From assembly GCF_958301595.1 (NCBI RefSeq), contig NZ_CATQJU010000001.1, positions 310,001 through 374,000 of the forward strand: 64,000 nucleotides of DNA, in the 5' to 3' direction. How positions within the stretch are numbered: the stretch's first letter is position 1; every line of letters begins with the position of its first letter. Shown here piece after piece: positions 11,892 to 54,995 of this stretch. The notes under the pieces are model-generated. The model had not been told where the DNA came from, did no database searches, and was given only the letters and a program-made list of their open reading frames with translations. The position numbers and the translations under genes are program-made. The stretch is from Porphyromonas vaginalis. Lineage in GTDB: Bacteria > Bacteroidota > Bacteroidia > Bacteroidales > Porphyromonadaceae.

Positions 11892-12869
11892 ATGAACAAA
11901 CTAGCTACACGATTCATACCCCTCATACTACTCTTACTGCTACCACTCAGCACCCATCTGCGTGCTCAAGTGACGCCAGCACCTATCGATGGGCCTCGTA
12001 TTACCTTGACGACCGACCTACCCGCCGGCTCTAGTCTAGGTATAGCTTTCGTGCCACACGATGAGACCGTCTGGGTAGATGTCAATGGCAATGGCATCTG
12101 CGACAGAGGCGAGGGCAGAGCCAAGGACAACGTCGGCAAGACAAACATCATGATCGTCGTCCTTGTCAAGCCGAACGTCACAATCCATGGTCCCATAGAT
12201 GCGATCCGCTTTGGAGGACTAGATCTCACCGGGCTCGAGGTCACCAAGATGCCTAAGCTAAAAGAGATCCAGTGCTTCAATAATCGGATAGAGCGTCTAG
12301 ACCTCTCTGGCAGCACAGGACTACAAACGCTCTTTTGCTTTCAAAATAAAATTTCCTCGCTAGATCTCTCTGCATGTAAGGAGATAAACGACATACGTTG
12401 CTTCTACAATCAAATCGGAGAGGGACCGATGAATGCGCTGATGCGTAGCCTCCCCGACCGTACTGCAAAGAAGAAAGGACTCGTCATAGCACTCGACACG
12501 ACCATTCCTGATGAGAAAAACGTCTGCTCTGTAGATGCCGTCAAAGTCGCTCTAGATAAGAACTGGGAGGTCAACGATTTCCACGGGGACAAGCAGTCCT
12601 GGACAGGTGTGCCTTACAAAGGCTCTCCCTCTGCAATCCAAGAGTTGCTCCCAGACACCCCCATTGTCTACTATGACGGGGCTACTCATGCCCTAGTCTT
12701 GGCTGGCAATGCTGGTGCGCCTTACGCCCTATACTCAGAGACCGGCTTACTGCTAACATCAGGGGTACTAGACGCTAGCGGTCAGTACCAAATAGCGATG
12801 ACCGCCTATCCCGATGGAGCCTATATACTCAACATCGGAGGCGAGAGCTTTAAGATCTACCACATCTAG
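11892..12869 (+). CDS. Short internalin-J-like LRR surface protein
   Basis: A 325-residue protein. Signal peptide at about residues 1-25 (ending HLRAQ). Acidic loop VWVDVNGNGICDRGEG near residue 59, about three LRR turns at 110-170 (L-x-x-I-x-C-F-x-N-x-I-x-x-L-D-L), the cap (MNALMRSLPDR ... K-N-W-E-V-N-D-F), then a C-terminal beta domain (YALYSETGLLLTSG ... YPDGAYILNIGG) resembling T9SS sorting domains. Fourth gene of the operon. The cap segment closely resembles that of the third and fifth genes, so these are tandem paralogues. Confidence 0.78.
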   Translation: MNKLATRFIPLILLLLLPLSTHLRAQVTPAPIDGPRITLTTDLPAGSSLGIAFVPHDETVWVDVNGNGICDRGEGRAKDNVGKTNIMIVVLVKPNVTIHGPIDAIRFGGLDLTGLEVTKMPKLKEIQCFNNRIERLDLSGSTGLQTLFCFQNKISSLDLSACKEINDIRCFYNQIGEGPMNALMRSLPDRTAKKKGLVIALDTTIPDEKNVCSVDAVKVALDKNWEVNDFHGDKQSWTGVPYKGSPSAIQELLPDTPIVYYDGATHALVLAGNAGAPYALYSETGLLLTSGVLDASGQYQIAMTAYPDGAYILNIGGESFKIYHI

Positions 12870-12889
12870 GTCAGAGCTGTAATCCACGT

Positions 12890-12919
12890 GTGGCGTGTTT
12901 CCTAGAGGAGACACGCCAC
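12890..12919 (+). other. Strong intercistronic hairpin between LRR genes four and five
   Basis: GTGGCGTGTTTCCT (12890-12903) pairs with AGGAGACACGCCAC (12906-12919) with one mismatch, a near-perfect 30-bp palindrome. No T-run follows. It may act as a partial terminator, processing site or stability element lowering expression of the last gene. Confidence 0.5.
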
Positions 12920-12949
12920 TCCATCCACTACACACTAAATACATCAACT

Positions 12950-13960
12950 ATGTCTCGACATCATATCACATATTTCATCAGCCTCCTCTCGCTACTGGCA
13001 CTCCCAGTCCTTGGGCAGGATCCCTTCAAGCCAGTCTCTACCGATGGTGACCGCATCGTCCTAACCACCGCCATAGAGCGTGCTGACGAAATCTCATTCG
13101 TCATACGTCCTATAGAGCATGGCGTCTGGGTCGATCAGAATGGCGATGGCCAGTTTCAAAGAGAAGAGATGGCCAGCAATCCTGAAGATGACCTTGATGA
13201 GCCAGGACAATTCCTAGTATCCTTTCAGGTCACATCACCTCAGATTACAATCTATGGCAAGATAGACCAACTCATCATCCAAGACCGCAAAATAACCAAC
13301 GTAGACCTAACACACGCCACAGCACTCAAGACTCTAGAGGCGTACCGCAATGAGATATCCTCGATCATGATACCGGCAGGTCTACCACTAGAAGATCTCT
13401 GGCTAGCAGATAACAACTTGCAGGGGATAGACTTCTCCAATTGTAGCAAGTTGTGGTTCATAGAGCTCTACAACAATCAGATCTCAGAGCAGGCTATGAC
13501 TAAGGCCTTTAGCACCTTGCAACACGCAGCACCCGTTGCTAATCCCGAGCTAGACATCCCCGAGCCGACCATTCAAGTGATCGACACGCATAGCGACCAT
13601 GAGGGCAATGTATGCAACGTAGATGCTGTAGCTCATGCCAAGAGCCTCGGATGGGCTGTCTACGATCTAGCAGGAGACACGAAAGACTGGATTGGAGAGC
13701 CTTACGAAGGTTCGCCCGTGGGCATCACGCCTATCTCGTCGCACATGCCGACCTGTAGCCGTCTACCTGAAGCGATCAGACTAGACTCGCTAGAGCCTCA
13801 CAGCACCATCACACTCTACGATATGGAGGGACGCACGCTGCAAGAGTTCTCTACGTCCACGAGCTCCGTCACGATTCCTCTGGTAGCCGAGCAGTCTGCT
13901 ACACCCTACCTCCTCACGATCCAGTCGCCTGAGGGGCAGCGAGTGAGCCTCAAGCTCTAA
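12950..13960 (+). CDS. Short internalin-J-like LRR surface protein, last gene of the operon
   Basis: A 336-residue protein. ATG 12950 is chosen over an in-frame start at 12890 because it begins the signal peptide (ITYFISLLSLLALPVLGQ) and avoids translating the intercistronic hairpin. Degenerate acidic loop VWVDQNGDGQFQREEM near residue 58, about three LRR turns (105-170), and a cap with a Pro/Glu-rich insertion (NPELDIPEPTIQV). The C-terminal domain (ITLYDMEGRTLQEF) resembles the T9SS sorting domain. A terminator follows at 14018-14059, closing the operon. Confidence 0.76.
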   Translation: MSRHHITYFISLLSLLALPVLGQDPFKPVSTDGDRIVLTTAIERADEISFVIRPIEHGVWVDQNGDGQFQREEMASNPEDDLDEPGQFLVSFQVTSPQITIYGKIDQLIIQDRKITNVDLTHATALKTLEAYRNEISSIMIPAGLPLEDLWLADNNLQGIDFSNCSKLWFIELYNNQISEQAMTKAFSTLQHAAPVANPELDIPEPTIQVIDTHSDHEGNVCNVDAVAHAKSLGWAVYDLAGDTKDWIGEPYEGSPVGITPISSHMPTCSRLPEAIRLDSLEPHSTITLYDMEGRTLQEFSTSTSSVTIPLVAEQSATPYLLTIQSPEGQRVSLKL

Positions 13961-14017
13961 CCCGCATAGCGATCCACGGGTCGCAAAGGTTGCACCCTTA
14001 AGTAGCACTTATAGATG

Positions 14018-14059
14018 ATAGCCACGTAGGAAATTCGAAATCCCTACGTGGCTATTTTT
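14018..14059 (+). terminator. Rho-independent terminator of the LRR operon
   Basis: ATAGCCACGTAGG (14018-14030) pairs exactly with CCTACGTGGCTAT (14043-14055), followed by TTTT. The loop is AAATTCGAAATC. Confidence 0.85.
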
Positions 14060-14179
14060 CATTCCTTACATAGGGATTGAAAAGTTCCAAGAGGGAAACT
14101 ATTTTTGGAACACGTATCTATCACACGTTCAATACAATAAAACAATATACACCAATAGAGGCTAACGAATTGAGGAAAT

Positions 14180-14698
14180 CAGGGCTGACGCATTATAATC
14201 GCTCTGTCAGGGGCTACACATGAGCGACAAGCAAGGCATAGATGAGGTCACTATATATAATGTGTCACCCCTGCCCTCTAACCTCTAACCTCTAATCTCT
14301 AATTACATATCTTTACAGGGAAATTCGTCCGATTCCCTCCTTTCTCGAATATCCACGTGGGGAATCTCAAATCTCCACGTGGATGTTTTTCTTTTTCCAA
14401 GTGGGGGCGAATCATTTCTTCCGAAGTTTCATTTCATTCTTCCGAAGTTTCATTTCATTCCTCCGAAGAATTTTTTATTCTCCACGTGGAGTTTTTGAAA
14501 TATCCACGTGGAAATCACTTTTCCCCGACACGGAGTCGTTTTGATATGTAGTCAGCTCTAAATTATTGCAACGATCCAGCGTCGAATTTGCCCAGCCAGG
14601 GCTGACGCATCATAATCGCTCTTGCAGGGGCTACACATGAACGACAATCGAGGAGTAGAGAGGTCGATGTGTTCATTATATATAATGCGTCAGCCCTG
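14180..14698 (+). mobile_element. Intact 519-bp composite MITE-like element with CCACGTGG palindromes (R1)
   Basis: The outer ends are inverted repeats: CAGGGCTGACGCATTATAAT at 14180-14199 and its complement ending ATGCGTCAGCCCTG at 14698. They are the same ends as the ISAs1-family elements at 25676 and 28367. The unit is flanked by the 10-bp direct repeat TTGAGGAAAT (14170-14179 and 14699-14708), a target duplication. Inside are a left MITE arm (14180-14273), a CTCTAAY tract (14275-14300), CCACGTGG palindromes at 14353, 14375, 14397 (one mismatch), 14482 and 14504, 21-bp bricks at 14411-14468, and a right MITE arm (14597-14698). It carries no transposase and is presumably mobilised in trans. 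Confidence 0.85.
14411..14468 (+). repeat. 21-bp tandem bricks inside the composite element
   Basis: Nearly three copies of the unit CATTTCATTCTTCCGAAGTTT, with T/C variation in the CTTCCG/CCTCCG step. The same unit occurs three times at 25380-25437, four times at 42167-42240 and three times (inverted) at 54800-54860, so the number varies between copies. Confidence 0.85.
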
Positions 14699-14739
14699 TT
14701 GAGGAAATGGGTACAACTCCTCTTACGTCTGTTTTTTTT

Positions 14740-14747
14740 TACCTTTG
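14740..14747 (+). promoter_or_regulatory. -7 element TACCTTTG before the small membrane protein gene
   Basis: TACCTTTG lies about 50 bp upstream of ATG 14797. No TTG is found 17-23 bp upstream, so the -33 part is weak or absent. It lies just outside the composite element's target duplication. Confidence 0.45.
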
Positions 14748-14796
14748 CCGAGCAACGAAAGAGATCGATATCTGTCAGTAAGTCTATCCCTAAGTT

Positions 14797-15213
14797 ATGG
14801 CACTGTTTTTTCTTTTGTTACTTCCATATTATACACTAGCGAGGGGACTCAACACCCTACGCTTGTTCGGGCTATCTTGGAGCGATCTCAAAAGGGGGAA
14901 GACTCGATCGAACTCGCTCACCTCTAAACTAAAGTGCGCAGATATCTGTGACGGGGTCTTATTGATTGTGCTATCACTTGTTGCTTTAGTGGCTTTGTCT
15001 TCACTGTCACTGTACGAGGTCGGGGTACCTCTAGGATATAAACTTATAGGTAACACCTTCCTGCCTGGACTTTTTACAGGATGGGCTCTGGAGCTCTTAC
15101 GTTGCCATAGTGCTGACGGCTCATTCAATAGGAAGCAAGCAATCTTCCTCACCCTAACGATTGCGATCTTGCTAGGGTCGCTTTATTGGCTATGGGTTGA
15201 GGTGTCCTATTGA
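14797..15213 (+). CDS. Hypothetical inner-membrane protein
   Basis: A 138-residue, strongly hydrophobic protein with about four predicted membrane segments: residues 1-15, about 47-70 (GVLLIVLSLVALVALSSLSL), about 80-98 and about 116-136. A basic loop (KRGKTRSNSLTSKLK) separates the first two. No family recognised. The composite mobile element ends about 100 bp upstream, and codon use (more A/T-ending codons, unlike the GC-rich queD-porE block) hints at different ancestry. The start is uncertain; ATG 14797 is the first after the -7 element in this frame. Confidence 0.5.
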   Translation: MALFFLLLLPYYTLARGLNTLRLFGLSWSDLKRGKTRSNSLTSKLKCADICDGVLLIVLSLVALVALSSLSLYEVGVPLGYKLIGNTFLPGLFTGWALELLRCHSADGSFNRKQAIFLTLTIAILLGSLYWLWVEVSY

Positions 15214-15317
15214 GTCTGCTATCCAGTCCCAAGGGTTAGCATAAAGAAAGCTGTGTCAAAGCACTACCCATCAGCCTCTTGTAGGAGACTTGCGGGGGCT
15301 TCGTAGGGTGAGGGATC

Positions 15318-15348
15318 TTTGCGACAGTCTTCTTTTTCCTTACCTTTG
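15318..15348 (+). promoter_or_regulatory. Bacteroidetes-type promoter of the queD-queE-porE block
   Basis: TTTG at 15318-15321, a 19-bp spacer, then TACCTTTG at 15341-15348, an exact match to the consensus. The leader is short: transcription would start within about 10 nt of ATG 15361. Confidence 0.8.
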
Positions 15349-15360
15349 TGACACTTAACT

Positions 15361-15786
15361 ATGACGACAGTAGAGAGATATCACGATATAAGCATGGGAC
15401 ACCGTGTCGTGGGACACGAGTCGAAGTGCCGCCACCTACACGGACACAACTACCGGATACACTTCACCTGCTCCGCAGCACAGCTTGATGAGCTGGGGCG
15501 GGTGATCGACTTTGGCGTGATCAAAGAGCTCCTCTGCATGTGGCTGGAGGAGCATTGGGATCACAAGATGATGATCTACGATGAGGACCCGCTACTCCCC
15601 TCGCTACAGGAGCTGGTACCAGAGGACTTGGTCGTGGTGCCCTTTAATCCGACAGCCGAAGCAATGGCGCAATACCTCGTCGAGACGGTTGCTCCCGCAC
15701 AATTGGCCGGCACGGGCGTAACACTCGTCAGCTGTCGTGTCGAGGAGACGGCACGATGTAGCGCTACCTACTCACTACCTATATAG
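15361..15786 (+). CDS. queD: 6-carboxy-5,6,7,8-tetrahydropterin synthase
   Basis: A 141-residue protein of the PTPS/QueD family. It converts 7,8-dihydroneopterin triphosphate to 6-carboxytetrahydropterin, the step before QueE in queuosine (7-deazaguanine) synthesis. The active-site block is visible near the N-terminus: His14 in GHRVV, catalytic Cys23 and zinc ligands His27 and His29 in CRHLHGH. The conserved WDHK motif is near residue 60 and a terminal Glu is in CRVEETA. Length is normal. The gene is followed directly by queE (start 15788), so the two consecutive steps are co-expressed. Confidence 0.93.
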   Translation: MTTVERYHDISMGHRVVGHESKCRHLHGHNYRIHFTCSAAQLDELGRVIDFGVIKELLCMWLEEHWDHKMMIYDEDPLLPSLQELVPEDLVVVPFNPTAEAMAQYLVETVAPAQLAGTGVTLVSCRVEETARCSATYSLPI

Positions 15787-15787
15787 T

Positions 15788-16393
15788 ATGCAGTCGCTAC
15801 CGGTCAACGAGATCTTCTACAGCCTCCAAGGCGAGGGAGGACAGATGGGACGCGCGATGCTCTTCGTGCGTCTCTCGGGGTGCAATCTCTCCTGCGACTA
15901 CTGCGACACAGACTTTGCGGGGCATCGGCTTATGAGCGCTGCAGAGATTTTGGCAAAGCTGGAGGGCTACCCCTGCCGTGACATCCTCTGGACTGGTGGC
16001 GAACCGACCTTAGCACTGCAGGAGGAGCATATAGCTTTCTTTCACGAGCAGGGCTATCGTCAGTCTATTGAGACAAATGGCACACGCCCCGTGCCTCGGG
16101 GACTGGACTACGTCACCTGTTCGCCCAAACCAGAAGCAATAAGTGGCTTGCGGGAGCGTTTTGTAGATAACTACCCTGACGGCATCAATGAGGTGCGCTG
16201 GCCCCTACAACTAGCCGCTCCCCTACCCCCACCCATTGAGCAGCTGGCCGAGGCACGTCGTTACTACGTCAGCCCCGTAGAGGAGACGGGCGTAGAGATG
16301 TCGGCCGTTGTGGCGCGCTGTATGGACTTCGTCTTAGCCCACCCCGAGTGGCGGCTCAGCGTACAGCTACACAAGTTGCTAGGGTTTCGTTAA
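15788..16393 (+). CDS. queE: 7-carboxy-7-deazaguanine synthase (radical SAM)
   Basis: A 201-residue radical SAM enzyme that converts 6-carboxytetrahydropterin to 7-carboxy-7-deazaguanine, the precursor of preQ0 and queuosine. ATG 15788 is preferred over an in-frame start at 15737 because it begins right after queD and matches the family N-terminus (VNEIFYSLQGEG). The cluster-binding CX3CX2C motif is C32-x3-C36-x2-C39 (CNLSCDYC), and WTGGEPTL near residue 78 is the GGE motif for SAM binding. Other queuosine genes (queC, queF, tgt) are not in the window. Confidence 0.93.
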   Translation: MQSLPVNEIFYSLQGEGGQMGRAMLFVRLSGCNLSCDYCDTDFAGHRLMSAAEILAKLEGYPCRDILWTGGEPTLALQEEHIAFFHEQGYRQSIETNGTRPVPRGLDYVTCSPKPEAISGLRERFVDNYPDGINEVRWPLQLAAPLPPPIEQLAEARRYYVSPVEETGVEMSAVVARCMDFVLAHPEWRLSVQLHKLLGFR

Positions 16394-16408
16394 GTAAACG
16401 GTTTAACC

Positions 16409-18406
16409 ATGAAAGTCTCGTCGTCACATATTCGCTGGTTGCTCGTGCTACTTCCGTGCGCTATGGCGCTCTGTAGCTTGATGGGCTGCAAGAGTGTGAC
16501 GCTGAGCAAGGCGGAGCTGTACGACCATACGGGACGCTATGCCCTCGCAGCCGATAGCTACTACACGCTCTACCGCAAGACCTCTCGCAAGAAGCCGGAG
16601 CGACGGGCTTATCTAGCTTTCAAAGCAGCAGAGAATTACCGACGACTGGGCAACACGCCCCGTGCGCTCAACTGCTACAACCTAGCTCTCTCGGGGGACT
16701 ATCCCGACTCGATCCTCCACCTACGCATCGCTCAGGAGCTACAACAGCTGGGACGCTGGCGGGAGGCGGGTAAAGCTTACGAGCAGTTTCTAGAGTACTA
16801 CCCACACGACTACTTCGGACGCATAGGACTGGCGAGCGTGCATCAGGCTGACTCGCTCCTCGCCCACCCCACGGGGCACACGGTCGAGACGGATCGTCTC
16901 TTGATCTCGCCCTATGCGGAGTTTGCCCCTTGCTATGCGCCTGACGGCACGATACTCTACTTCACCAGTAGCCGTGTGCCTCTCCGTGATATGCTACAGG
17001 AGAGCGAGGTGACGGGGCTGGGGACGAACAATCTCTATATGATCAAACAGGACGCTACGGGTAAGTGGTCCCGCCCCGACAGCGTGCCAGGCAGTGTCAA
17101 TACGCCCGAAGATGAGGGCACCCCCTCCATCACGGCAGACGGCAACACGCTCTACTACTCTTACGCTGAGCAAAGCTCCACCTACGACCGCACCGTGCAG
17201 ATCTACAAAGCCTCCAAGTCTAGCCAAGGGGGCTGGGGCAAAGGCGAGTGCATACCCATCTGGGAGGACTCGCTACGTATGGCGGCGCACCCCGCCATTG
17301 ACGCTTCGGGACGATACCTTTACTTCGTGAGCGAGGGGGCTGGCCTAGGGGGCAAAGACCTTTACCGCATACTCCTCAGCGAGCATGGCTGGGGCAAGCC
17401 GGAGAACCTCGGCAACGAGATCAATACGCCTGGCGACGAACTCTTCCCCACGATGGTGGGCGACAGCACCCTTTACTTCTCCTCCAACGGACGTGTGGGT
17501 CTGGGCGGACTAGACCTATACAAAGCGCAGATGGACTCGCTCGGAGAGTGGCAGGTGACGCATCTGGGCGCTCCGATGAACTCCCCCGCCGATGACTACG
17601 CCATCACCTTTGCACCAAAGCCGCAGTCAGGCTTGGCAGAGGAGGGATACCTCTCCTCGACTCGTGGCGACCAGCGTGGACGACCACACCTCTACCGCTT
17701 CTCATTACCCGCCACCATCATCCGCATCGACGGCTTCGTGATGGACCGGGAGGGGTACGGCATCCCGCAGGCGACGGTACGCATTGCCGATGAGCAAGGT
17801 TTGCTCGCCACGCCCATTGTCTCGACACGTGACGACGGTTCTTTTGTCCTTGAGATTGCGGGGTCAAACCGCTACGTGCTACATGCCTCGCACCCGGACT
17901 ACCTCAACCAATACATGCCGCTCGTGACCGACAGCGCCACCGAGAGCACCGACTACTTGGTCGACTTTTACCTAGCTTCGCGCCTGCACTCGGAGCAGAT
18001 CCACGACATCTACTACGACTTCGACCGAGCTTCGCTACGCCCCGAGGGGAAAAAGAGTCTCGACTACCTCGTCACGCTCCTAGCGCAAAACCCCGACGTA
18101 CGCCTCGAGCTGAGCAGTAACACCGACCGCAAAGGTTCGCAGGCATACAATCAGAAGCTCTCGCAGCGTCGTGCGCAGAGTGTCGTCGACTACCTCATCG
18201 CCAAGGGCATTGCCGCCGACCGCCTAGAGGCTCGGGGCTATGGCAAGGAGCGTCCCTACGTAGTGAGCAAGGGGATGGCGGCGCGCTTCGACTGGTTGCC
18301 CGAGGGGCAGGAGCTAACGGCCGAATGGGTCGGCACGCTGACCGAAGAGCAGCAAGTCGTCTGCGACCAGCTCAACCGTCGCACCGAGTTTACCGTCATA
18401 CAATAA
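16409..18406 (+). CDS. porE: PorE-like T9SS lipoprotein (TPR, beta-propeller, CRD, OmpA)
   Basis: A 665-residue lipoprotein with a lipobox (LMGC, Cys27). The domains follow the order known for P. gingivalis PorE (PG1058): TPR repeats (about 40-150), a PD40/WD40-like beta-propeller (about 165-430, with strands such as LYFTSS, LYYSYA, LYFVSE, LYFSSN), a carboxypeptidase-regulatory-like domain (about 440-520), and an OmpA C-terminal peptidoglycan-binding domain (about 533-620, with YYDFDRASLRPEG). PorE is an established, essential T9SS component that tethers the system to peptidoglycan. The length matches. It sits 15 bp after queE. It is functionally linked to the LRR proteins at 5-14 kb, which carry T9SS-type signals. 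Confidence 0.85.
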   Translation: MKVSSSHIRWLLVLLPCAMALCSLMGCKSVTLSKAELYDHTGRYALAADSYYTLYRKTSRKKPERRAYLAFKAAENYRRLGNTPRALNCYNLALSGDYPDSILHLRIAQELQQLGRWREAGKAYEQFLEYYPHDYFGRIGLASVHQADSLLAHPTGHTVETDRLLISPYAEFAPCYAPDGTILYFTSSRVPLRDMLQESEVTGLGTNNLYMIKQDATGKWSRPDSVPGSVNTPEDEGTPSITADGNTLYYSYAEQSSTYDRTVQIYKASKSSQGGWGKGECIPIWEDSLRMAAHPAIDASGRYLYFVSEGAGLGGKDLYRILLSEHGWGKPENLGNEINTPGDELFPTMVGDSTLYFSSNGRVGLGGLDLYKAQMDSLGEWQVTHLGAPMNSPADDYAITFAPKPQSGLAEEGYLSSTRGDQRGRPHLYRFSLPATIIRIDGFVMDREGYGIPQATVRIADEQGLLATPIVSTRDDGSFVLEIAGSNRYVLHASHPDYLNQYMPLVTDSATESTDYLVDFYLASRLHSEQIHDIYYDFDRASLRPEGKKSLDYLVTLLAQNPDVRLELSSNTDRKGSQAYNQKLSQRRAQSVVDYLIAKGIAADRLEARGYGKERPYVVSKGMAARFDWLPEGQELTAEWVGTLTEEQQVVCDQLNRRTEFTVIQ

Positions 18407-23657: not shown

Positions 23658-23738
23658 CGCGTCAGCTCTCTAACTTCTAACTTCTAATCTCTAATAACAT
23701 ATCTTTACGGGGAGATTCGTCCGATTCCCTCCTTTCTC
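23658..23738 (+). repeat. Left part of CCACGTGG composite repeat R2, interrupted by an IS3-family element
   Basis: It begins with a MITE-arm remnant (GCGTCAG), a CTCTAAC/CTTCTAAC tract, then ACATATCTTTACGGGGAGATTCG and the CCGATTCCCTCCTTTCTC stretch seen in R1, R3 and R4. The sequence resumes at 25312 with CTCGAATATCCACGTGG, showing that one repeat was split. Confidence 0.85.
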
Positions 23739-23786
23739 TGTCCTCTCCTGAAATAGTACACAGTTGGGAAGCCAACCCCAACAACT

Positions 23787-24167
23787 ATGAAAGAAGAAAA
23801 AAGTAACCGAGGACGAAAGGGATATCCCCTAGATTTCAAGTGGAGAGTCATTGATGACCTCCTAGCCACTGGCGAGAGCATCGCCACGACCAGCCAGCGC
23901 TACGGCATTACCACACGCACCATTCGAAATTGGTTGCGTACCTTTGGAGTAGAGTTACCCAACCAAAGCAGCAGTAGCACTATGAGCAAGACAAACAAGA
24001 ACAAAGACGTAGATCCAGAGTACGCAGAACTCAAGCGCGAAAACGCTCGCCTCAAAGCAGCCCTCTTCCAGGCTGAGAGCAAGGCATTAGTCAACAAGAC
24101 ACTACTCGAAGTGGTCTTGAATCGCTACCACATTGATCTAAAAAAAAAGACCGATTTGCAGCCGTGA
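23787..24167 (+). CDS. IS3-family transposase OrfA (helix-turn-helix protein)
   Basis: A 126-residue protein. The N-terminal half is a helix-turn-helix DNA-binding domain (FKWRVIDDLLATGESIATTSQRYGI then TTRTIRNWLRTFG), which recognises the IS ends. The C-terminal half is a leucine-zipper-like helix (YAELKRENARLKAALFQAESKAL). It ends in LKKKTDLQP just past an A9G slippery run; a -1 shift there fuses it to OrfB. Alone it probably acts as a repressor, as established for IS3 OrfA proteins. Confidence 0.9.
   Translation: MKEEKSNRGRKGYPLDFKWRVIDDLLATGESIATTSQRYGITTRTIRNWLRTFGVELPNQSSSSTMSKTNKNKDVDPEYAELKRENARLKAALFQAESKALVNKTLLEVVLNRYHIDLKKKTDLQP
24140..24149 (+). promoter_or_regulatory. Probable programmed -1 frameshift site (A9G)
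   Basis: A run of nine A followed by G contains the A-AAA-AAG slippery heptamer near the end of orfA. A -1 slip continues as KKDRFAAVRQLEHAK, running straight into orfB. This is the standard IS3 way to make the OrfAB transposase. Confidence 0.75.
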
Positions 24168-25219
24168 GACAGCTTGAACACGCCAAAGTGAGAGATCAAA
24201 AGCTCTCCATAACCTACCTTTGTCAGCTACTAGAAGTCAGCCGCAAAGGCTACTACAAGCACACCTTCACCGAGCAAGACGAAGATGTCAAAGTAGCCTC
24301 CGTCCTACACTATTGCCAGTATGTGCGAAGTAAGCTCCACAGGGCAGGCGTAGACACCCTTCAGCAGTGTGCCAACGAATACTTCGAAGGAACCTTCCAA
24401 GTAGGTCGCGACTGGCTGTACAAAGTCTTAGGAGCCAACGATATGCTGCTGAGAAGTCGCAAGCGCAAGCGTCCACCCCAGACGACCAAAGGCGTGGTCA
24501 ATCACGGCTTCCAAGATCACCTGAACACCACCCCTAAATACATTGCCACTGACCATTGCCGGCTCACCGTCTCAGACATAACCTACGTCAAATGTTTAGG
24601 GGGCTTCGCATATCTCTCCCTGACGATGGACGCTTATAGCCGCATCATCACCGGCTTTGACCTGCAGCCCACGCTCTCCACAGAGGGCCCCTACAACGCA
24701 CTAAGACAGACCGTTGACTTCTACCAGAAGCATGGCTTTGACCTCAAAGGGCTCATCTTCCATAGCGACCGAGGCTGTCAATATGTCTCCAAGCAGATGA
24801 CCGACTACGAGGCCAGCCTAGGCATCGTAACCAGTGTCACCCAGACAGGCAACCCTCTCCACAACGCTATGGCAGAGCGACTTAACGGGATCATCAAGAA
24901 CGACTGGCTCTACAACTTCGAGGATAAGCCCATAGATCAAGTTCGAGAGATCCTCTCGCAAACGATTGCTCTCTATAACACAGCGCGTCCTCATCGAGCC
25001 ATCAACAAGAAGACTCCGATGCAGATGCTCATACCAGATTACCCCAACCCTATAACCACACAACCCTCTAAGAAACAGACATCTAAGAACAATTCACCAA
25101 AAGCTCCGAGCCTCAAATCTCCGAGCTCATGCCGCTTAACTCCACACAAAGACCTATCTTTGTGTACCTCCGCAGTAAAAACGACCACAAGTCGTGTACC
25201 CCAGCAAGAGCAAAACTAA
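24164..25219 (+). CDS. IS3-family transposase OrfB (DDE integrase core)
   Basis: A 351-residue frame opened by GTG 24164, overlapping orfA by 4 bp, but more likely made by -1 frameshifting from orfA. It has the HTH_21 segment (LLEVSRKGYYKHTF) and an rve integrase core with the catalytic triad: Asp in VSDITYVK, Asp in FHSDRGCQY and Glu in NAMAERLNG. The C-terminus is longer than usual and rich in Ser, Lys and Pro. Intact, so possibly functional. Confidence 0.92.
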   Translation: MRQLEHAKVRDQKLSITYLCQLLEVSRKGYYKHTFTEQDEDVKVASVLHYCQYVRSKLHRAGVDTLQQCANEYFEGTFQVGRDWLYKVLGANDMLLRSRKRKRPPQTTKGVVNHGFQDHLNTTPKYIATDHCRLTVSDITYVKCLGGFAYLSLTMDAYSRIITGFDLQPTLSTEGPYNALRQTVDFYQKHGFDLKGLIFHSDRGCQYVSKQMTDYEASLGIVTSVTQTGNPLHNAMAERLNGIIKNDWLYNFEDKPIDQVREILSQTIALYNTARPHRAINKKTPMQMLIPDYPNPITTQPSKKQTSKNNSPKAPSLKSPSSCRLTPHKDLSLCTSAVKTTTSRVPQQEQN

Positions 25220-25311
25220 CAAATGAGTACACTCACAGGACTAACAAAAATGACCCGAGTACCATCTCAGTAATACCTTCCCAACTGTGTACTTTTTTCA
25301 GGAAGAGGACA

Positions 25312-25564
25312 CTCGAATATCCACGTGGGGAATCTCAAATCTCCACGTGGATATTTTTCTTTTTCCACGTGGGCATGATTCATTTCTTCCGAAGTTTCAT
25401 TTCATTCCTCCGAAGTTTCATTTCATTCCTCCGAAGAATTTTTTATTCTCCACGTGGAGATTTCGAAATATCCACGTGGAAATCACTTTTCCCCGACACG
25501 GCGCCGTTTTTATATGTAGTCAGTTCTAAATTATTGTAACTCGCCGAGGTTGAATTTCACCAGC
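25312..25564 (+). repeat. Right part of CCACGTGG composite repeat R2
   Basis: It resumes the repeat cut at 23738. CCACGTGG palindromes lie at 25321, 25343, 25365, 25450 and 25472, all perfect, with three 21-bp bricks at 25380-25437. The conserved tail CCCCGACACGG...ATATGTAGTCAGTTCTAAATTATTG leads into the MITE arm at 25565. Confidence 0.9.
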
Positions 25565-25665
25565 CAGGGCTGACGCCTTATAATCGCTCTGTCAGGAGCT
25601 ACACATCAGCGACAAACGAGAAGTCGAGAGGTCGATGAACTCATTGTATATAATACGTCAGCCTG
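25565..25665. mobile_element. 101-bp MITE arm of R2 with ISAs1-type ends
   Basis: It starts CAGGGCTGACGCCTTATAAT and ends TATAATACGTCAGCCTG, imperfect inverted repeats equal to the ISAs1 ends next door. It aligns along its length with the right arm of R1 (14597-14698) and with 42367-42466. It is followed by the 10-bp GATTCTTAGA and then ISAs1 element A. Confidence 0.85.
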
Positions 25666-25675
25666 GATTCTTAGA

Positions 25676-26990
25676 CAGGGCTGACGCATTATAATTCTAT
25701 ATCGAAGATTTCCTCTGGAGTCATTCGTGCGAGCTTTTTCCTCAGGCGGAGCGATGATGTGCCTTTGAGCTTGTCTTTAAGCCGTTGAATGATAGTCAGG
25801 TTTATCTTGTTTATAATATTCATGTTCTGAGCTGCGTTGCGGGCTCTCTTGGTAGAGTAGTCCTCTCTAAAAAGCATATCCAGCATATAGTGTAGCTTGT
25901 TTTCCACAGCCCAATGTTCACGTATCAACTTGAAGACCTCCGCTCCGTCTGTCAGGCTAGAGATATAGAAGGTAGTTTCGCTGCTGGACTTATCTGTCTT
26001 CTTGTCCGTCCGTACTCTTGTCATCATATGGATACTTTTGAGCCCGTCCCACTTGTCTAAAGTCGAGTCTGGGTCTAGAGATAAAGGGTTTACGATGCTA
26101 CTCATCGTGCGCGTTTCTATTCGCCCGTGATCAAAGTCTTGCTGCTCTTGGTGCACTATGTGAGCATCGTAGAGGGGGCAGAAGAAGCTCTGCACCTCTT
26201 CCTTCGTTAGTCTCTGATTGTCTTTAACTTGAAGTATGTAGTCGCCCTCTTTTTCAACCACTGCCTTTGCGATCTCGGTCTGAGTGCCGATAGCGTCAAT
26301 GGTGATGACGGTATCTCGTAGATCTAGCGCCTTGAGAATCTTTTTAATGGCATTGATTTCGTTAGACTTACTAGAGATATATACCTGAGCCAATGAGGCT
26401 TGCTGATTGGGTTCAAAGGCTGTGACACAATGGCTATCGGCATCAAAGTCTAGCTTTTTGACGCCTCGCATCGTCTTACCATCTAGACAGATGTGCTTGC
26501 CAGTTGTTATCTCAAAGCTTTCCTCTAGGAAGGCTTTGTAGACTTGCTCTATCTGCTTGGGGGCAAGAAGGCTGATAGTCCGATTGAGCGTGTCGTGAGA
26601 GGGAACTCCCCAAGAACTCGACTCGCCTGATATACGCTCATATAGAGCCTCTAGATCATCTTTGTACTCCTCTGCATAGTCTTCTATTTCGTACCAAGAG
26701 GAGCAACCAGAAATAGTTGCCGTGAATACCGTCGTAAGGATGTATCCTAGGGGGAACTTTTTGCATCGATTTATGCGTGGGTCTTCGACCACTAGAAGCT
26801 GATTGAATATGCTCATAGAATTTATATATAGTATTGATTATCAGCTATAAAGATACGAAAAATCTACGACATGGACAAGCTTTTTGAAGAGAAAAATGAA
26901 GAGTTTTTGCGACTATATTGAGTTCTCTTTTTAGGCCCTTCATTCTCCCCTCAAGATCACAATCAGCTTTTCATTTATAATGCGTCAGCC
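25676..26990 (-). mobile_element. ISAs1-family element A (1318 bp with its last 3 bp at 28355-28357)
   Basis: The left end is CAGGGCTGACGCATTATAA (25676-25694); the right end reads TTATAATGCGTCAGCC up to 26990. There an IS4-family element interrupts the inverted repeat, and the final CTG lies at 28355-28357. Counting both parts gives 1318 bp, the same as copy B. The transposase gene is intact; its right end is broken, so mobility is doubtful. Confidence 0.9.
25689..26816 (-). CDS. ISAs1-family (H-repeat type) transposase, copy A
   Basis: A 375-residue transposase with the ISAs1/H-repeat hallmarks: an N-terminal PRINRCKKFPLGYIL segment, WGVPSHDTLNR, the catalytic-region motif LDGKTMRG near residue 130, VITIDAIGTQ near 170, and a C-terminal REHWAVENKLHYMLDMLFREDYS block with the catalytic Glu. 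The stop codon lies inside the terminal inverted repeat. It is about 97% identical by eye to copy B. It could supply transposase in trans to the MITEs with the same ends. Confidence 0.93.
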   Translation of the reverse strand: MSIFNQLLVVEDPRINRCKKFPLGYILTTVFTATISGCSSWYEIEDYAEEYKDDLEALYERISGESSSWGVPSHDTLNRTISLLAPKQIEQVYKAFLEESFEITTGKHICLDGKTMRGVKKLDFDADSHCVTAFEPNQQASLAQVYISSKSNEINAIKKILKALDLRDTVITIDAIGTQTEIAKAVVEKEGDYILQVKDNQRLTKEEVQSFFCPLYDAHIVHQEQQDFDHGRIETRTMSSIVNPLSLDPDSTLDKWDGLKSIHMMTRVRTDKKTDKSSSETTFYISSLTDGAEVFKLIREHWAVENKLHYMLDMLFREDYSTKRARNAAQNMNIINKINLTIIQRLKDKLKGTSSLRLRKKLARMTPEEIFDIEL

Positions 26991-28345
26991 CAATAGTGTC
27001 CTAAACGTTTTGCAGGATAAAGAGAAAAGGGTAGGTTTGTAATTGAGAAGAAAAACACAGCTAGTGAGAGCTGTCACAAACCACCCTTTTCAATGGCAAA
27101 TATAACACTATTCGCACAAGTAATCCGACTCATACCTCGAGAAATCATCCAACGATTAGTCAAGAAGCATGGCACAGACAAGCATGCAAAAGGCTTTAAC
27201 TCGTGGAGCCATTTGGTGACTATGATCTTCAGCCAATTCTCGAGTAGCGTGTCGCTACGTCAAATCTCAGAGGGGCTACAATCTGCCACGGGCAATCTCA
27301 ACCACCTAGGTCTATCACGAGCTCCCTCCAAATCCAACATCAGTTACCAAAACGCCAATAGGAGTTCCCAATTCTTCCAAGATGTCTTTTATGCACTCTT
27401 CCAATATTTGGGACAGCACGGAGATCTCAAGCAGATAAAGAAACGGCTGAAGGCGAAGGTTTGTCTTCTAGACTCAACCCTAATGTCCCTATGTCTCAGT
27501 ATGTATGACTGGGCTCTCTATACTCATACGAAAGGAGCCGTCAAGATGCATACAGTGCTTGATTTTGAGACACTTCTGCCTGAATTCGTCTGTATAAGCA
27601 ATGGCAAGGGAGCCGACAATACGATTGCCAAAAAGCTCCCCTTTGCCCGAGGAACCATCGTTGTAGCTGATCGAATCTACAGCGATACTGAGCTTCTGAA
27701 TCATTGGGACAGCACAGGTGTGATTTTCATCGTCAGAGGAAGAGACAACATCCAATTTGAGTCAATAAGGGAGAGAGATTTGCCTGATACGACATCTCAA
27801 GAGATACTGATAGATGAAGAGGTGAGACTGACAGGTGTAGAGACAGCGAGCAAGTACCCTAAGAAGATTCGTAGAATAGGCATCTACAATGTTCAAGGAG
27901 GTTACACGATTGACTTGTATACCAATGACTTTACGCATGCAGCCAGTACTGTTGCAGCGCTATATCGCTCACGTTGGAAGATTGAGATCTTCTTTAGAAA
28001 CCTCAAGCAAAACCTGCATATCAAGAGTTTTCTGGGAACTTCTCAAAACGCTGTCGAGATTCAGATTTGGACGGCTCTGATTACGATTCTCTTACTTCAA
28101 TATCTCAAGCGAATAGCAAAACACCCCTGGTGTCTCTCCAATTTAACAGCATCCTTGAGACTCAACACGTTCACCAAAATCGGCCTCTTTCAGTGGATAA
28201 ATGAGCCGTTTTCACCGCCTCCAGACGAGACCGAAATAGCATAGGGGGGATACCCCCGTTTTTACAGCAAATGTCAAGGGGCGATTGACCCGCTTGACAG
28301 CTATCTTACACCCATCGCCCGCAAAAAACGTTTAGGACACTATTG
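26991..28345 (+). mobile_element. IS4-family insertion sequence, 1355 bp, inserted in the ISAs1 copy A end
   Basis: Perfect 21-bp inverted repeats, beginning CAATAGTGTCCTAAACGTTT at 26991 and mirrored at 28325-28345. The 9-bp target duplication GCGTCAGCC lies at 26982-26990 and 28346-28354; it is part of the ISAs1 terminal repeat. One intact transposase gene. The perfect ends and target duplication indicate a recent insertion. Confidence 0.93.
27093..28244 (+). CDS. IS4-family transposase
   Basis: A 383-residue DDE transposase. The N-terminal region (DUF4372-like, with KHAKGFNSWSHLVTMIFSQFS) is followed by catalytic motifs: the first Asp in CLLDSTLM near residue 128, the second in VVADRIYSD near 193, and the YREK-type signature YRSRWKIEIFFRNLKQNL near 290 carrying the catalytic Glu. 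Typical of Bacteroidetes IS4 elements. Intact, with an 80-bp leader from the left inverted repeat. Confidence 0.92.
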   Translation: MANITLFAQVIRLIPREIIQRLVKKHGTDKHAKGFNSWSHLVTMIFSQFSSSVSLRQISEGLQSATGNLNHLGLSRAPSKSNISYQNANRSSQFFQDVFYALFQYLGQHGDLKQIKKRLKAKVCLLDSTLMSLCLSMYDWALYTHTKGAVKMHTVLDFETLLPEFVCISNGKGADNTIAKKLPFARGTIVVADRIYSDTELLNHWDSTGVIFIVRGRDNIQFESIRERDLPDTTSQEILIDEEVRLTGVETASKYPKKIRRIGIYNVQGGYTIDLYTNDFTHAASTVAALYRSRWKIEIFFRNLKQNLHIKSFLGTSQNAVEIQIWTALITILLLQYLKRIAKHPWCLSNLTASLRLNTFTKIGLFQWINEPFSPPPDETEIA

Positions 28346-28366
28346 GCGTCAGCCCTGATTCTTAGA

Positions 28367-29684
28367 CAGGGCTGACGCATTATAATTCCATTTCGAAGAT
28401 TTCCTCTGGAGTCATACGTGCGAGCTTTTTCCTCAGGCGCAGCGTTGATGTGGCTTTGAGCTTGTCTTTAAGCCGTTGAATGATAGTCAGGTTTATCTTA
28501 TTTATAATGTTCATGTTCTGAGCGGCATTGCGGGTTCTCTTGGTAGAGTAGTCCTCTCTGAAAAGCATATCCAGCATATAGTGAAGCTTGTTTTCCACAG
28601 CCCAATGCTCACGGATCAACTTGAAAACTTCTGTCCCGTCTGTCAGGCTAGAGATATAGAAGGTGGTCTCGCTGGTGGACTTATCTGTCTTCTTGTCCGT
28701 CCGTACTCTTGTCATCATATGGATACTTTTGAGCCCGTCCCATTTGTCTAAAGTCGAGTCTGGGTCTAGAGATAAAGGGTCTACGATGCTACTCATCGTA
28801 CGTGTTTCTATTCGCCCATGACCAAAGTCTTTCTGTTCTTGATGCACTATGTGAGCATCGTAGAGGGGACAAAAGAAACTTTGCACCTCTTCCTTCGTTA
28901 GCTTCTGATTATCTTTAACTTGGAGTATGTAGTCGCCCTCTTTTTCAACCACTGCCTTTGCGATCTCGGTCTGAGTGCCGATAGCGTCAATGGTGATGAC
29001 GGTGTCTCGTAGATCTAGAGCCTTGAGGATCTCTTTGATGGCATTGATTTCGTTCGACTTAGTGGAGATATATACCTGAGCCAATGAGGCTTGCTGGTTG
29101 GGGTCAAAGGCTGTAACGCAATGGCTGTCGGCATCAAAGTCTAGCTTCTTAACGCCTCTCATCGTCTTACCATCTAGACAGATGTGCTTGCCAGTTGTTA
29201 TCTCAAAGCTTTCCTCTAGAAAGGCTTTGTAGACTTGCTCTATCTGCTTGGGATCAAGAAGACTGATGGCGCGATTGAGCGTGTCGTGAGAGGGGACTCC
29301 CCAAGAGCTCGACTCTCCTGATATACGCTCATATAGAGCCTCTAGATCATCTTTGTACTCTTCTGCGTAGTCTTCTATTTCATACCAAGAGGAGCAGCCA
29401 GAGATAGTAGCCGTGAATACAGTTGTGAGGATGTACCCTAAGGGGAACTTTTTGCATCGATTTATGCGTGGATCTTCGACCATTAGAAGGTGATTGAATA
29501 TACTCATATTATCTGTATATAGTATTGATTATCAGCTATAAAGGTACGAAAAGTTTATGACATAGACAAGCCTTTTTGAGGGAAAATCAAAGAGTTTTTG
29601 AGGCTATATTGAGTTCTCTTTTTAGGCTCTTCATTCTGCCCTCAACGCCAAAATCAGCTTTTCATTTATAATGCGTCAGCCCTG
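28367..29684 (-). mobile_element. ISAs1-family element B, 1318 bp, complete
   Basis: The ends are perfect 19-bp inverted repeats, CAGGGCTGACGCATTATAA at 28367-28385 and its complement at 29666-29684. Flanks are ATTCTTAGA on the left and GATTCTTAGA (29685-29694) on the right, a 9-10 bp target repeat. The same GATTCTTAGA also separates the MITE at 25565 from element A. It lies 42 bp from the -7 element of aspA. Confidence 0.93.
28380..29507 (-). CDS. ISAs1-family (H-repeat type) transposase, copy B
   Basis: A 375-residue transposase nearly identical to copy A, with a few substitutions (LLMVEDPR for LLVVEDPR at the N-terminus; EIFEMEL for EIFDIEL at the C-terminus). The same motifs are present (LDGKTMRG, VITIDAIGTQ, REHWAVENKLHYML). 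Both copies are complete, and this one has both element ends, making it the best candidate source of active transposase for the related MITEs in this window. Confidence 0.93.
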   Translation of the reverse strand: MSIFNHLLMVEDPRINRCKKFPLGYILTTVFTATISGCSSWYEIEDYAEEYKDDLEALYERISGESSSWGVPSHDTLNRAISLLDPKQIEQVYKAFLEESFEITTGKHICLDGKTMRGVKKLDFDADSHCVTAFDPNQQASLAQVYISTKSNEINAIKEILKALDLRDTVITIDAIGTQTEIAKAVVEKEGDYILQVKDNQKLTKEEVQSFFCPLYDAHIVHQEQKDFGHGRIETRTMSSIVDPLSLDPDSTLDKWDGLKSIHMMTRVRTDKKTDKSTSETTFYISSLTDGTEVFKLIREHWAVENKLHYMLDMLFREDYSTKRTRNAAQNMNIINKINLTIIQRLKDKLKATSTLRLRKKLARMTPEEIFEMEL

Positions 29685-41999: not shown

Positions 42000-42466
42000 A
42001 TTATATATAATGTGTCCACCCAGCTCTCCAAACTCTAGCCTCCAATCTCTAACTCCTAACCTCTAATCTCCATTTACATATCTTTACGGGGAAATTTGTC
42101 CGATCCCCTCCTTTCTCGAATATCCACTTGGATATTTTTCATTTTCCACGTGGGCGTCAAAAAATTCCTCCGAAGTTTCATTTCATTCTTCCGAAGTTTC
42201 ATTTCATTCCTCCGAAGTTTCATTTGATTCCTCCGAGGAATTTTTTCTTTTCCACGTGGGCATTTCGAAATATCCACGTGGAAATCACTTTTCCCCGACA
42301 CAGCACCATTTTAATATGTAGTCTGTTCTAAATTATTGTAATGAGCTGGCGTCGGATTTCGCCAGCCAGACTGACGCATTATAATCGCACTTTCAGGAGC
42401 TGCACATAACGACAAGCGAGGAATAGAGAGGTCGATAAGCTCATTGTATACAATGCGTCAGCCCTG
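42000..42466 (+). repeat. Partly decayed composite CCACGTGG repeat R3b
   Basis: A left-arm remnant (TATATAATGTGTCCACCC), a CTCTAAY tract (about 42020-42070), ACATATCTTTACGGGGAAATTTG, palindromes at 42124 (one mismatch; P1 and P2 apparently fused), 42146, 42252 and 42274, four 21-bp bricks at 42167-42240, the conserved tail, and a right MITE arm at 42367-42466 whose first end has lost GG (CAGACTGACGC). Confidence 0.85.
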
Positions 42467-54624: not shown

Positions 54625-54995
54625 CTAGTGAAATGAGCCCCGCCCGAAAGCGCGATTATGGTACGTTACTCCTGTCTGGGCAAATTCGACCCTCACTCGT
54701 TACAATAATTTAGAACTGGCTACATATCGATACGGGACTGTGTCGGGGAAAATGGATTTCCACGTGGATATTTCGAAATGCCCACGTGGAGAATAAAAAA
54801 TTCCTCGGAGGAATGAAATGAAACTTCGGAAGAATCAAATGAAACTTCGGAAGAATCAAAACGCCCCCACGTGGAAAATAAAAAATATCCACGTGGAGAT
54901 TTGAGATTCCCCACGTGGATATTCGATAAAGGAGGGAATCGGACAAATTCCCCTGTAAAGATATGTTATTAGAGGTTAGAGGGCAGAGGTGACTC
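54625..54995 (-). repeat. CCACGTGG composite repeat R4 (inverted; arms decayed)
   Basis: Five perfect CCACGTGG palindromes at 54770, 54782, 54867, 54889 and 54911, three 21-bp bricks (54800-54860), and the conserved ACATATCTTTAC and CCTCTAACC segments at the high-coordinate end. The right MITE arm is badly worn (54625-54675), and the left arm is cut where a family-2 MITE inserted at 55003. It lies between the XRE-PIN pair and a lipoprotein gene. Confidence 0.85.

Follow-up and report, generated by a model that had tools for sequence, protein, structure and literature searches.

A gene-less, composite-looking ISAs1-type miniature element with a palindrome array in a Porphyromonas uenonis-like clade

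Introduction

MITEs are usually intergenic. Miniature elements in composite form are known as TIME-COMP, derived from Tn3 (PMC4133298). According to the available text of that report, a TIME-COMP consists of two non-autonomous miniature elements around a core and is moved whole by its outer ends, with duplication of the target. Its ends are of Tn3 type and its duplications of 5 bp, it measures 2.5-3.9 kb and its core carries genes, while its arms are identical or near-identical and of a kind that is also mobile alone. In TIME-COMP2, the two elements are in direct orientation.

Within the genus Porphyromonas, the closest described element is BrickBuilt, a MITE of P. gingivalis (PMC4596501). In the available part of its description, it is an intergenic, gene-less element of one Porphyromonas group with short bricks in tandem. 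It has IS5-type ends (GAGACC...), 23-nt bricks, 19 copies and a target duplication of inconstant length. The word ISAs1 is absent from the available text of a 2024 review of prokaryotic MITEs (PMC10969869).

Here, we analyse a mobile unit in a stretch of 64,000 nucleotides, called the window below, which covers positions 310001-374000 of a 2.52-Mb assembly. A preliminary description of the locus knew of no earlier account of this family in Porphyromonas. For the family of this unit, this agrees with the literature searched, which leaves out most subscription journals; the brick-bearing, IS5-ended BrickBuilt, however, had been published for P. gingivalis.

Results

Architecture of the unit

The features of the unit and of its relatives in the window are collected in Table 1. 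The preliminary description had proposed a unit of 519 bp with outer inverted ends and exact 10-bp TTGAGGAAAT repeats, in which two short arms (94 and 102 bp), each with ISAs1-like ends of its own, enclose a core of about 320 bp with CCACGTGG palindromes and 21-bp bricks. All these features are present in the letters. The outer ends at 14180-14197 and 14681-14698, which read CAGGGCTGACGCATTATA and the reverse complement of it, complement each other at 18 of 18 positions. The arms are direct repeats in the same orientation, each with its own pair of inverted ends; their identity is 87% over the first 63 bp and 79% between the two arms as a whole, less than the identity or near-identity asked of flanking elements. 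In the ORF list of the window, no ORF of at least 90 aa overlaps the unit, which is thus short and without a transposase gene, as a MITE should be.

Table 1. Coordinates of the mobile unit, of further family copies and of ISAs1-family elements in the window
Feature	Position	Strand	Remarks
Whole mobile unit	14180..14698	+	519 bp; non-autonomous ISAs1-type element
Target duplication, left copy	14170..14179	.	TTGAGGAAAT, 10 bp; single at the empty G001 locus
Target duplication, right copy	14699..14708	.	TTGAGGAAAT, 10 bp
Left arm	14180..14273	+	94 bp; outer end 14180, inner end 14273 (2/14 mismatches)
Core	14274..14596	+	323 bp
Spacer	14274..14308	+	CTCTAAC-like 7-bp repeats; arm-core distance differs among copies
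Palindrome array	14347..14515	+	CCACGTGG sites and CTTCCGAAG bricks, period 21-22 bp
Hairpin	14347..14388	+	17 pairs, then T-rich tract; terminator-like
Two exact bricks	14416..14457	+	21 bp each, TTCTTCCGAAGTTTCATTTCA
Right arm	14597..14698	+	102 bp; outer end 14698, inner end 14597 perfect over 14 bp
Further family unit	23668..25666	+	core cut into 23668-23738 and 25312-25564 by an IS3-family element; right arm at 25565-25666
Further core with right arm	42047..42466	+	core 42047-42366, right arm 42371-42466
Further core copy	54676..54990	-
Full-length ISAs1-family IS	28367..29684	-	exact 10-bp duplication GATTCTTAGA; likely transposase source
Second ISAs1-family copy	25676..26993	-	right end disturbed beside IS4-type element

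Outside the unit, a further hairpin (CCACGTAGG...CCTACGTGG) was observed at 14014-14060, after the ORF that ends at 13960; its tail is T-rich. It is kept in a related genome (G001) and resembles the palindromes of the array. An Rfam scan of 13900-15000 returned eight matches up to E 5, none of which reached the gathering score of its family. The match with the best E value, that of a virus RNA model to the 14014-14060 hairpin (E 0.0011; 26.6 against 35 bits), was set aside as chance.

ISAs1 elements as a probable transposase source

Two transposases encoded in the window belong to the ISAs1 family, with scores of 287.1 and 283.5 bits against NCBIfam NF033564 (cut-off 70). Across the genome, seven matches span all 375 transposase residues. 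At their termini, the unit and the IS at 28367-29684 (transposase ORF 28380-29507) are identical for 20 bp on the left side and for 18 bp on the right, so that the unit has its terminal inverted repeats in common with a full-length IS of its genome, another mark of a MITE. Both also have a duplication of 10 bp. The IS differs from the unit in having a transposase gene, and their 60-base ends diverge beyond the terminal 18-20 bp. It had been proposed that the outer ends equal those of both full-length copies, each with a target repeat of about 10 bp. This is true of the 28367 copy in both ends and repeat, but the 25676 copy has the repeat only on its left flank (GATTCTTAGA), and its duplication is not demonstrable, since the right end of this copy, beside an IS4-type element, is disturbed. 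The two ISAs1 copies stand in tandem (25676-29684), with ATTCTTAGA between and around them, and the ORF of the IS4-type element lies at 27093-28244.

Partial transposase matches with 95-99% identity were retrieved from G001, G022 and G024, together with one of 66% from G001. G016 and G025 gave no transposase match, though both have units or related MITEs; this counts against the model, and in all five relatives the source may have been lost, fragmented by assembly or a different one. In the source genome, to judge from the ends and the length of the duplication, an ISAs1 transposase very likely moves the unit in trans.

Target duplications and empty sites

Ends, arms and cores were compared in 93 fetched stretches (after merging; 336,203 bases), which had been picked for holding cores or ends; the end search covered 100 of 192 ends and the arm search the best 40 of 128 candidates. 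Among 110 facing end pairs in these stretches, exact flanking repeats were 10 bp long in eight cases and 6 bp in one, and lengths of 5, 7-9 or 11-14 did not occur. A 10-bp duplication with at most two mismatches was detected at 13 of the 30 pairs that enclose a core (27 units), six of them exact, against a mean of 0.07 such pairs with shuffled flanks. Exact 10-bp repeats also flank two of three IS-sized pairs, and the duplication was found at none of the 24 pairs that are neither core-enclosing, arm-sized nor IS-sized. As in other MITEs, therefore, the duplication has the length of that of the IS (10 bp) and the copies are many (85 cores). The remaining 17 core-enclosing pairs show no recognisable duplication, which counts against the model; some of them are not true outer pairs, the 30 including pairs that are not the outermost ends of one unit, while age or recombination may account for others. 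Exact duplications also flank whole units in G022 (609 bp, L116) and G001 (520 bp, L121). Other full units likewise terminate at the CAGGG ends, as the preliminary description had expected.

For the empty-site search, the flanks of 12 units were joined and compared with five relatives. At the locus of the window unit, G001 has AACGAATTGAGGAAATGGGTACAACTCC uninterrupted, with one TTGAGGAAAT and without the unit; about 66 extra bases of another repeat lie upstream of the insertion point. This single 10-mer at a related locus does not contradict the duplication. A second orthologous empty site corresponds to unit 1671964, where G022 has one CCGTATGGCA (94% over 490 bases). Unit 2004827 is nested in another MITE, whose unbroken form in G024 spans the junction. 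A match to that MITE crosses the join in three of the 12 units (1029436, 1671964 and 2004827) and begins just beside it in unit 2151133. In G001, the locus of the latter is devoid of both the unit and the sequence around the junction, and it was not counted as an empty site. Similarity of P. uenonis DSM 23387 and 60-3 to 12000-17000 starts only at 15334, and the contig of an uncultured Porphyromonas MAG starts at 14806, to the right of the window unit.

Considering the shared ISAs1 ends, the 10-bp duplication and the empty site, the unit moves whole by its outer ends. The duplications and the empty sites thus support the earlier proposal of one intact cassette whose movement uses ISAs1-type ends and duplicates 10 bp of the target.

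Origin of the arms

It had further been proposed that two solo MITEs captured the core. Structurally, the unit is a composite: two complete miniature elements surround a core, and their outer ends are the ones used. Movement of the flanking elements alone was not detected, as target duplications were missing from all 53 arm-sized pairs of the 93 stretches (the arm search being limited to the best 40 of 128 candidates) and from all seven in loci of the relatives. Of the 114 arm matches in these stretches, 105 have a core on the same strand at a distance of at most 400 bases. For four of the other nine, long spacers put the core at 404-429 bases; the rest comprise one arm that abuts a core in inverted orientation, two ends of a different MITE (described below), an arm that is cut short and a degenerate one. 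None of these apparent solo arms in the 93 selected stretches was therefore retained as a mobile solo MITE.

A tree was built from 83 arms (43 left, 36 right and 4 solo), arms with fewer than 75 aligned positions being excluded. In this tree, 29 of the 36 right arms group in a clade that contains no left arm (support 0.947), a pattern that points to a single ancient assembly. The other seven lie outside this clade, so that arms must sometimes have been exchanged. Mean identity is 0.75 between left and right arms, 0.80 within the left and 0.78 within the right arms. Mean mismatches to the 14-bp end are 1.81 (outer) and 3.74 (inner) in left arms and 1.50 and 2.36 in right arms, all of them inflated by arm limits that were extrapolated from BLAST matches. 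Inner ends are thus more decayed than outer ends on average, although the right arm of the window unit keeps a perfect inner end. The preliminary reading of a capture is therefore borne out in the construction of the arms as mini-MITEs, but the absence of duplications at arm-sized pairs, the closeness of most arms to a core and the right-arm clade speak against solo MITEs as the agents.

A related MITE with a 22-bp array was found in G024 and G025 (L119, L125 and L126; 341-385 bp, exact 10-bp duplications). It has the same ends as the unit, but it is simple, not composite, and has its own 22-bp array with a CTAGGAAACTTTAGTTTCATAC-like brick. Its first ~80 bp and last 22 bp are common to the arms of the unit, so that an arm resembles this MITE with the middle deleted. 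In the source genome, some units are inserted within the 22-bp-array MITE.

The main rival holds that the arms arose by duplication of one end region within a single MITE, the composite look being secondary. Such a duplication predicts the shared orientation of the arms, and it agrees with arms that have no mobility of their own now and mostly lie within 400 bases of a core. However, each arm has a left-type and a right-type end, and duplication of one end alone leaves the inner ends unexplained; moreover, both arms resemble the G024/G025 MITE minus its middle. We regard this origin as possible, if rather unlikely. At slightly better than even odds, the sequences favour a composite that would have been assembled once from two mini-MITEs and then amplified whole.

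Copies in the genome and genus

We detected 85 whole or partial primary cores in the genome (more than 150 core positions aligned), of which 64 have at least 300 aligned positions; the 224 candidates of a first look are not equal to the copy number. The core was matched in seven of 26 Porphyromonas genomes, the source included, and hence in six of 25 others, one of them weak (G008, a single match). In G024 and G025, among the matches listed, most of those to the core fall on bricks. By the protein at 16409-18403, the nearest named records, in a listing from which the source genome may be missing, are an uncultured Porphyromonas MAG (98%), P. uenonis DSM 23387 (97%) and 60-3 (94%).

An IS3-family element of 1573 bp (23739-25311) interrupts a core copy in the window. 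The genome has 12 complete or almost complete copies of it, of which seven lie within family cores, each with a 3-bp duplication, and four of the other five were seen by eye in or beside other palindromic repeats. Its end sequence also adjoins arrays in G024 (L143 and L144; by eye). This pattern may partly be due to intergenic siting. Palindromic repeats (REP) are already known as insertion sites of IS elements (PMC1525189).

Core orientation is uneven along the chromosome: plus and minus copies number 26 and 11 below 1.0 Mb but 10 and 38 beyond it, with dnaA at 418. The 1.0-Mb boundary was set post hoc, and a split at 1.25 Mb gives 27/21 and 9/28. No such bias was evident by eye among 28 scored copies of G001. 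We treat it as an observation only, because the GC skew of the fetched stretches is too uneven to place the replication terminus. In G000, two unit copies (246478-247264 and 1508948-1509734) have a common right flank (TAAGGTGGAC) and different left flanks, and each has a full-length ISAs1 transposase match nearby, which suggests that the pair is part of a larger duplicated segment.

Core and palindrome array

The 60 nearly full cores of the genome have a mean identity of 0.86, somewhat above that of left and right arms, a value raised by collecting cores largely through likeness to the window core. An A-type subset of 48 cores, chosen for being more than 85% like the window core, has a mean of 0.89. 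The array is dispensable: a 447-bp unit at 1281813 is without it and has an exact duplication, so the array can be dropped without loss of movement. A 364-bp copy in G016 is also without the array and has no clear duplication.

The type of palindrome varies by genome in the copies read. The source genome has CCACGTGG. In eight array copies of G024 (L140-L147, with L143 interrupted on one side), central CCTCCGAAG-type bricks are kept and CCTAGG-type outer palindromes replace CCACGTGG, and the outer sequences of six from G025 (L151-L156) are different again. Across these array types, the inner CTTCCGAAG/CCTCCGAAG bricks vary little. In two further G024 copies, L148 and L149, the match extends across most of the core.

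These features raise the alternative of an intergenic element useful to the host, by terminator hairpins or as a protein-binding array, that is kept by selection while its movement is secondary. The array folds better than shuffled sequences (z -3.69 as DNA, -5.73 as RNA) and contains the 17-pair hairpin with its T-rich tail. The high likeness of cores relative to arms, the strand bias along the chromosome and the position of cores, none of the 74 with mapped neighbours lying inside an ORF of at least 120 codons, can be read in the same way. However, palindromes fold well irrespective of role, and terminator-like sites number one against 1.0 expected in shuffles (promoter-like sites, four against 1.8). 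In 59 distinct cores, neither of two array hairpins showed covariation: 945 of 1003 cells in one and 636 of 708 in the other were paired, no different from shuffles, and double changes were 0 and 4 against 1.9 and 3.5. We therefore make no claim of a selected RNA structure. Core identity is inflated by the way cores were gathered, an array-less unit moved too, and an intergenic position is usual among MITEs. Upkeep by host selection thus seems unlikely. It is more doubtful still, though conceivable, that, within one Porphyromonas clade, ISAs1-type MITEs spread phased palindrome arrays (21-22 bp, two helical turns) across the chromosome as mobile, re-tunable binding sites for a host protein, with palindromes that co-evolve with it.

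Separate construction of each unit, by currently mobile solo MITEs inserting beside a fixed core, would fit the complete mini-MITE structure of every arm, but is very improbable given duplications at 0/53 arm-sized as against 13/30 core-enclosing pairs and 0/7 in relatives, the right-arm clade with 29 of 36 members, and a right arm that, in the majority of the first 40 copies, joins the core at a nearly constant position.

Discussion

We put a rough probability of 0.88 on the overall reading of the unit as a non-autonomous MITE that is moved in trans via its outer ends, with arms from mini-MITEs, a single assembly, amplification as a whole and an array carried as a passenger. In this model, an ISAs1-family transposase would act in trans on the two outermost ends and duplicate 10 bp of the target. 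The arms would stem from a pair of mini-MITEs that share one orientation and each resemble a related MITE of the clade minus its middle. These may have come to flank the core once, in an ancestor, after which left arm, core and right arm would have been amplified together. The inner ends would then be leftovers, and the array probably passenger DNA that movement does not require.

With its empty sites in related genomes, the family shows how a composite-looking pair of miniature elements can turn into a fixed unit of about 0.5 kb that has no genes and leaves at least 85 cores in one chromosome. An ISAs1-type MITE family is now described for the Porphyromonas uenonis-like clade, and it may be of use in genome annotation, in explaining assembly breaks and as a source of strain markers. 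It also raises the question of why elements keep palindrome arrays whose sequence switches between genomes.

The unit can be compared with two known systems. With BrickBuilt (PMC4596501), it shares the intergenic position, the lack of genes, short bricks in tandem and restriction to one Porphyromonas group. It has ISAs1-type ends (CAGGGCTGACGCAT), palindromic units of 21-22 bp (the bricks being of 21 bp) and a 10-bp duplication, in place of the IS5-type ends and 23-nt bricks that define BrickBuilt, and is therefore not a member of that family. With TIME-COMP (PMC4133298), it shares two non-autonomous miniature elements around a core and movement as a whole through the outer ends, which duplicates the target; with TIME-COMP2, it also shares the direct orientation of the two elements. 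It differs from TIME-COMP in its ISAs1-type ends, its 10-bp duplication, its size of about 0.5 kb, the absence of genes, its diverged arms and the 85 cores found. Composite MITEs are thus already known from TIME-COMP, and what is new here are the ISAs1 ends, the very small size, the copy number and the exchangeable palindrome array.
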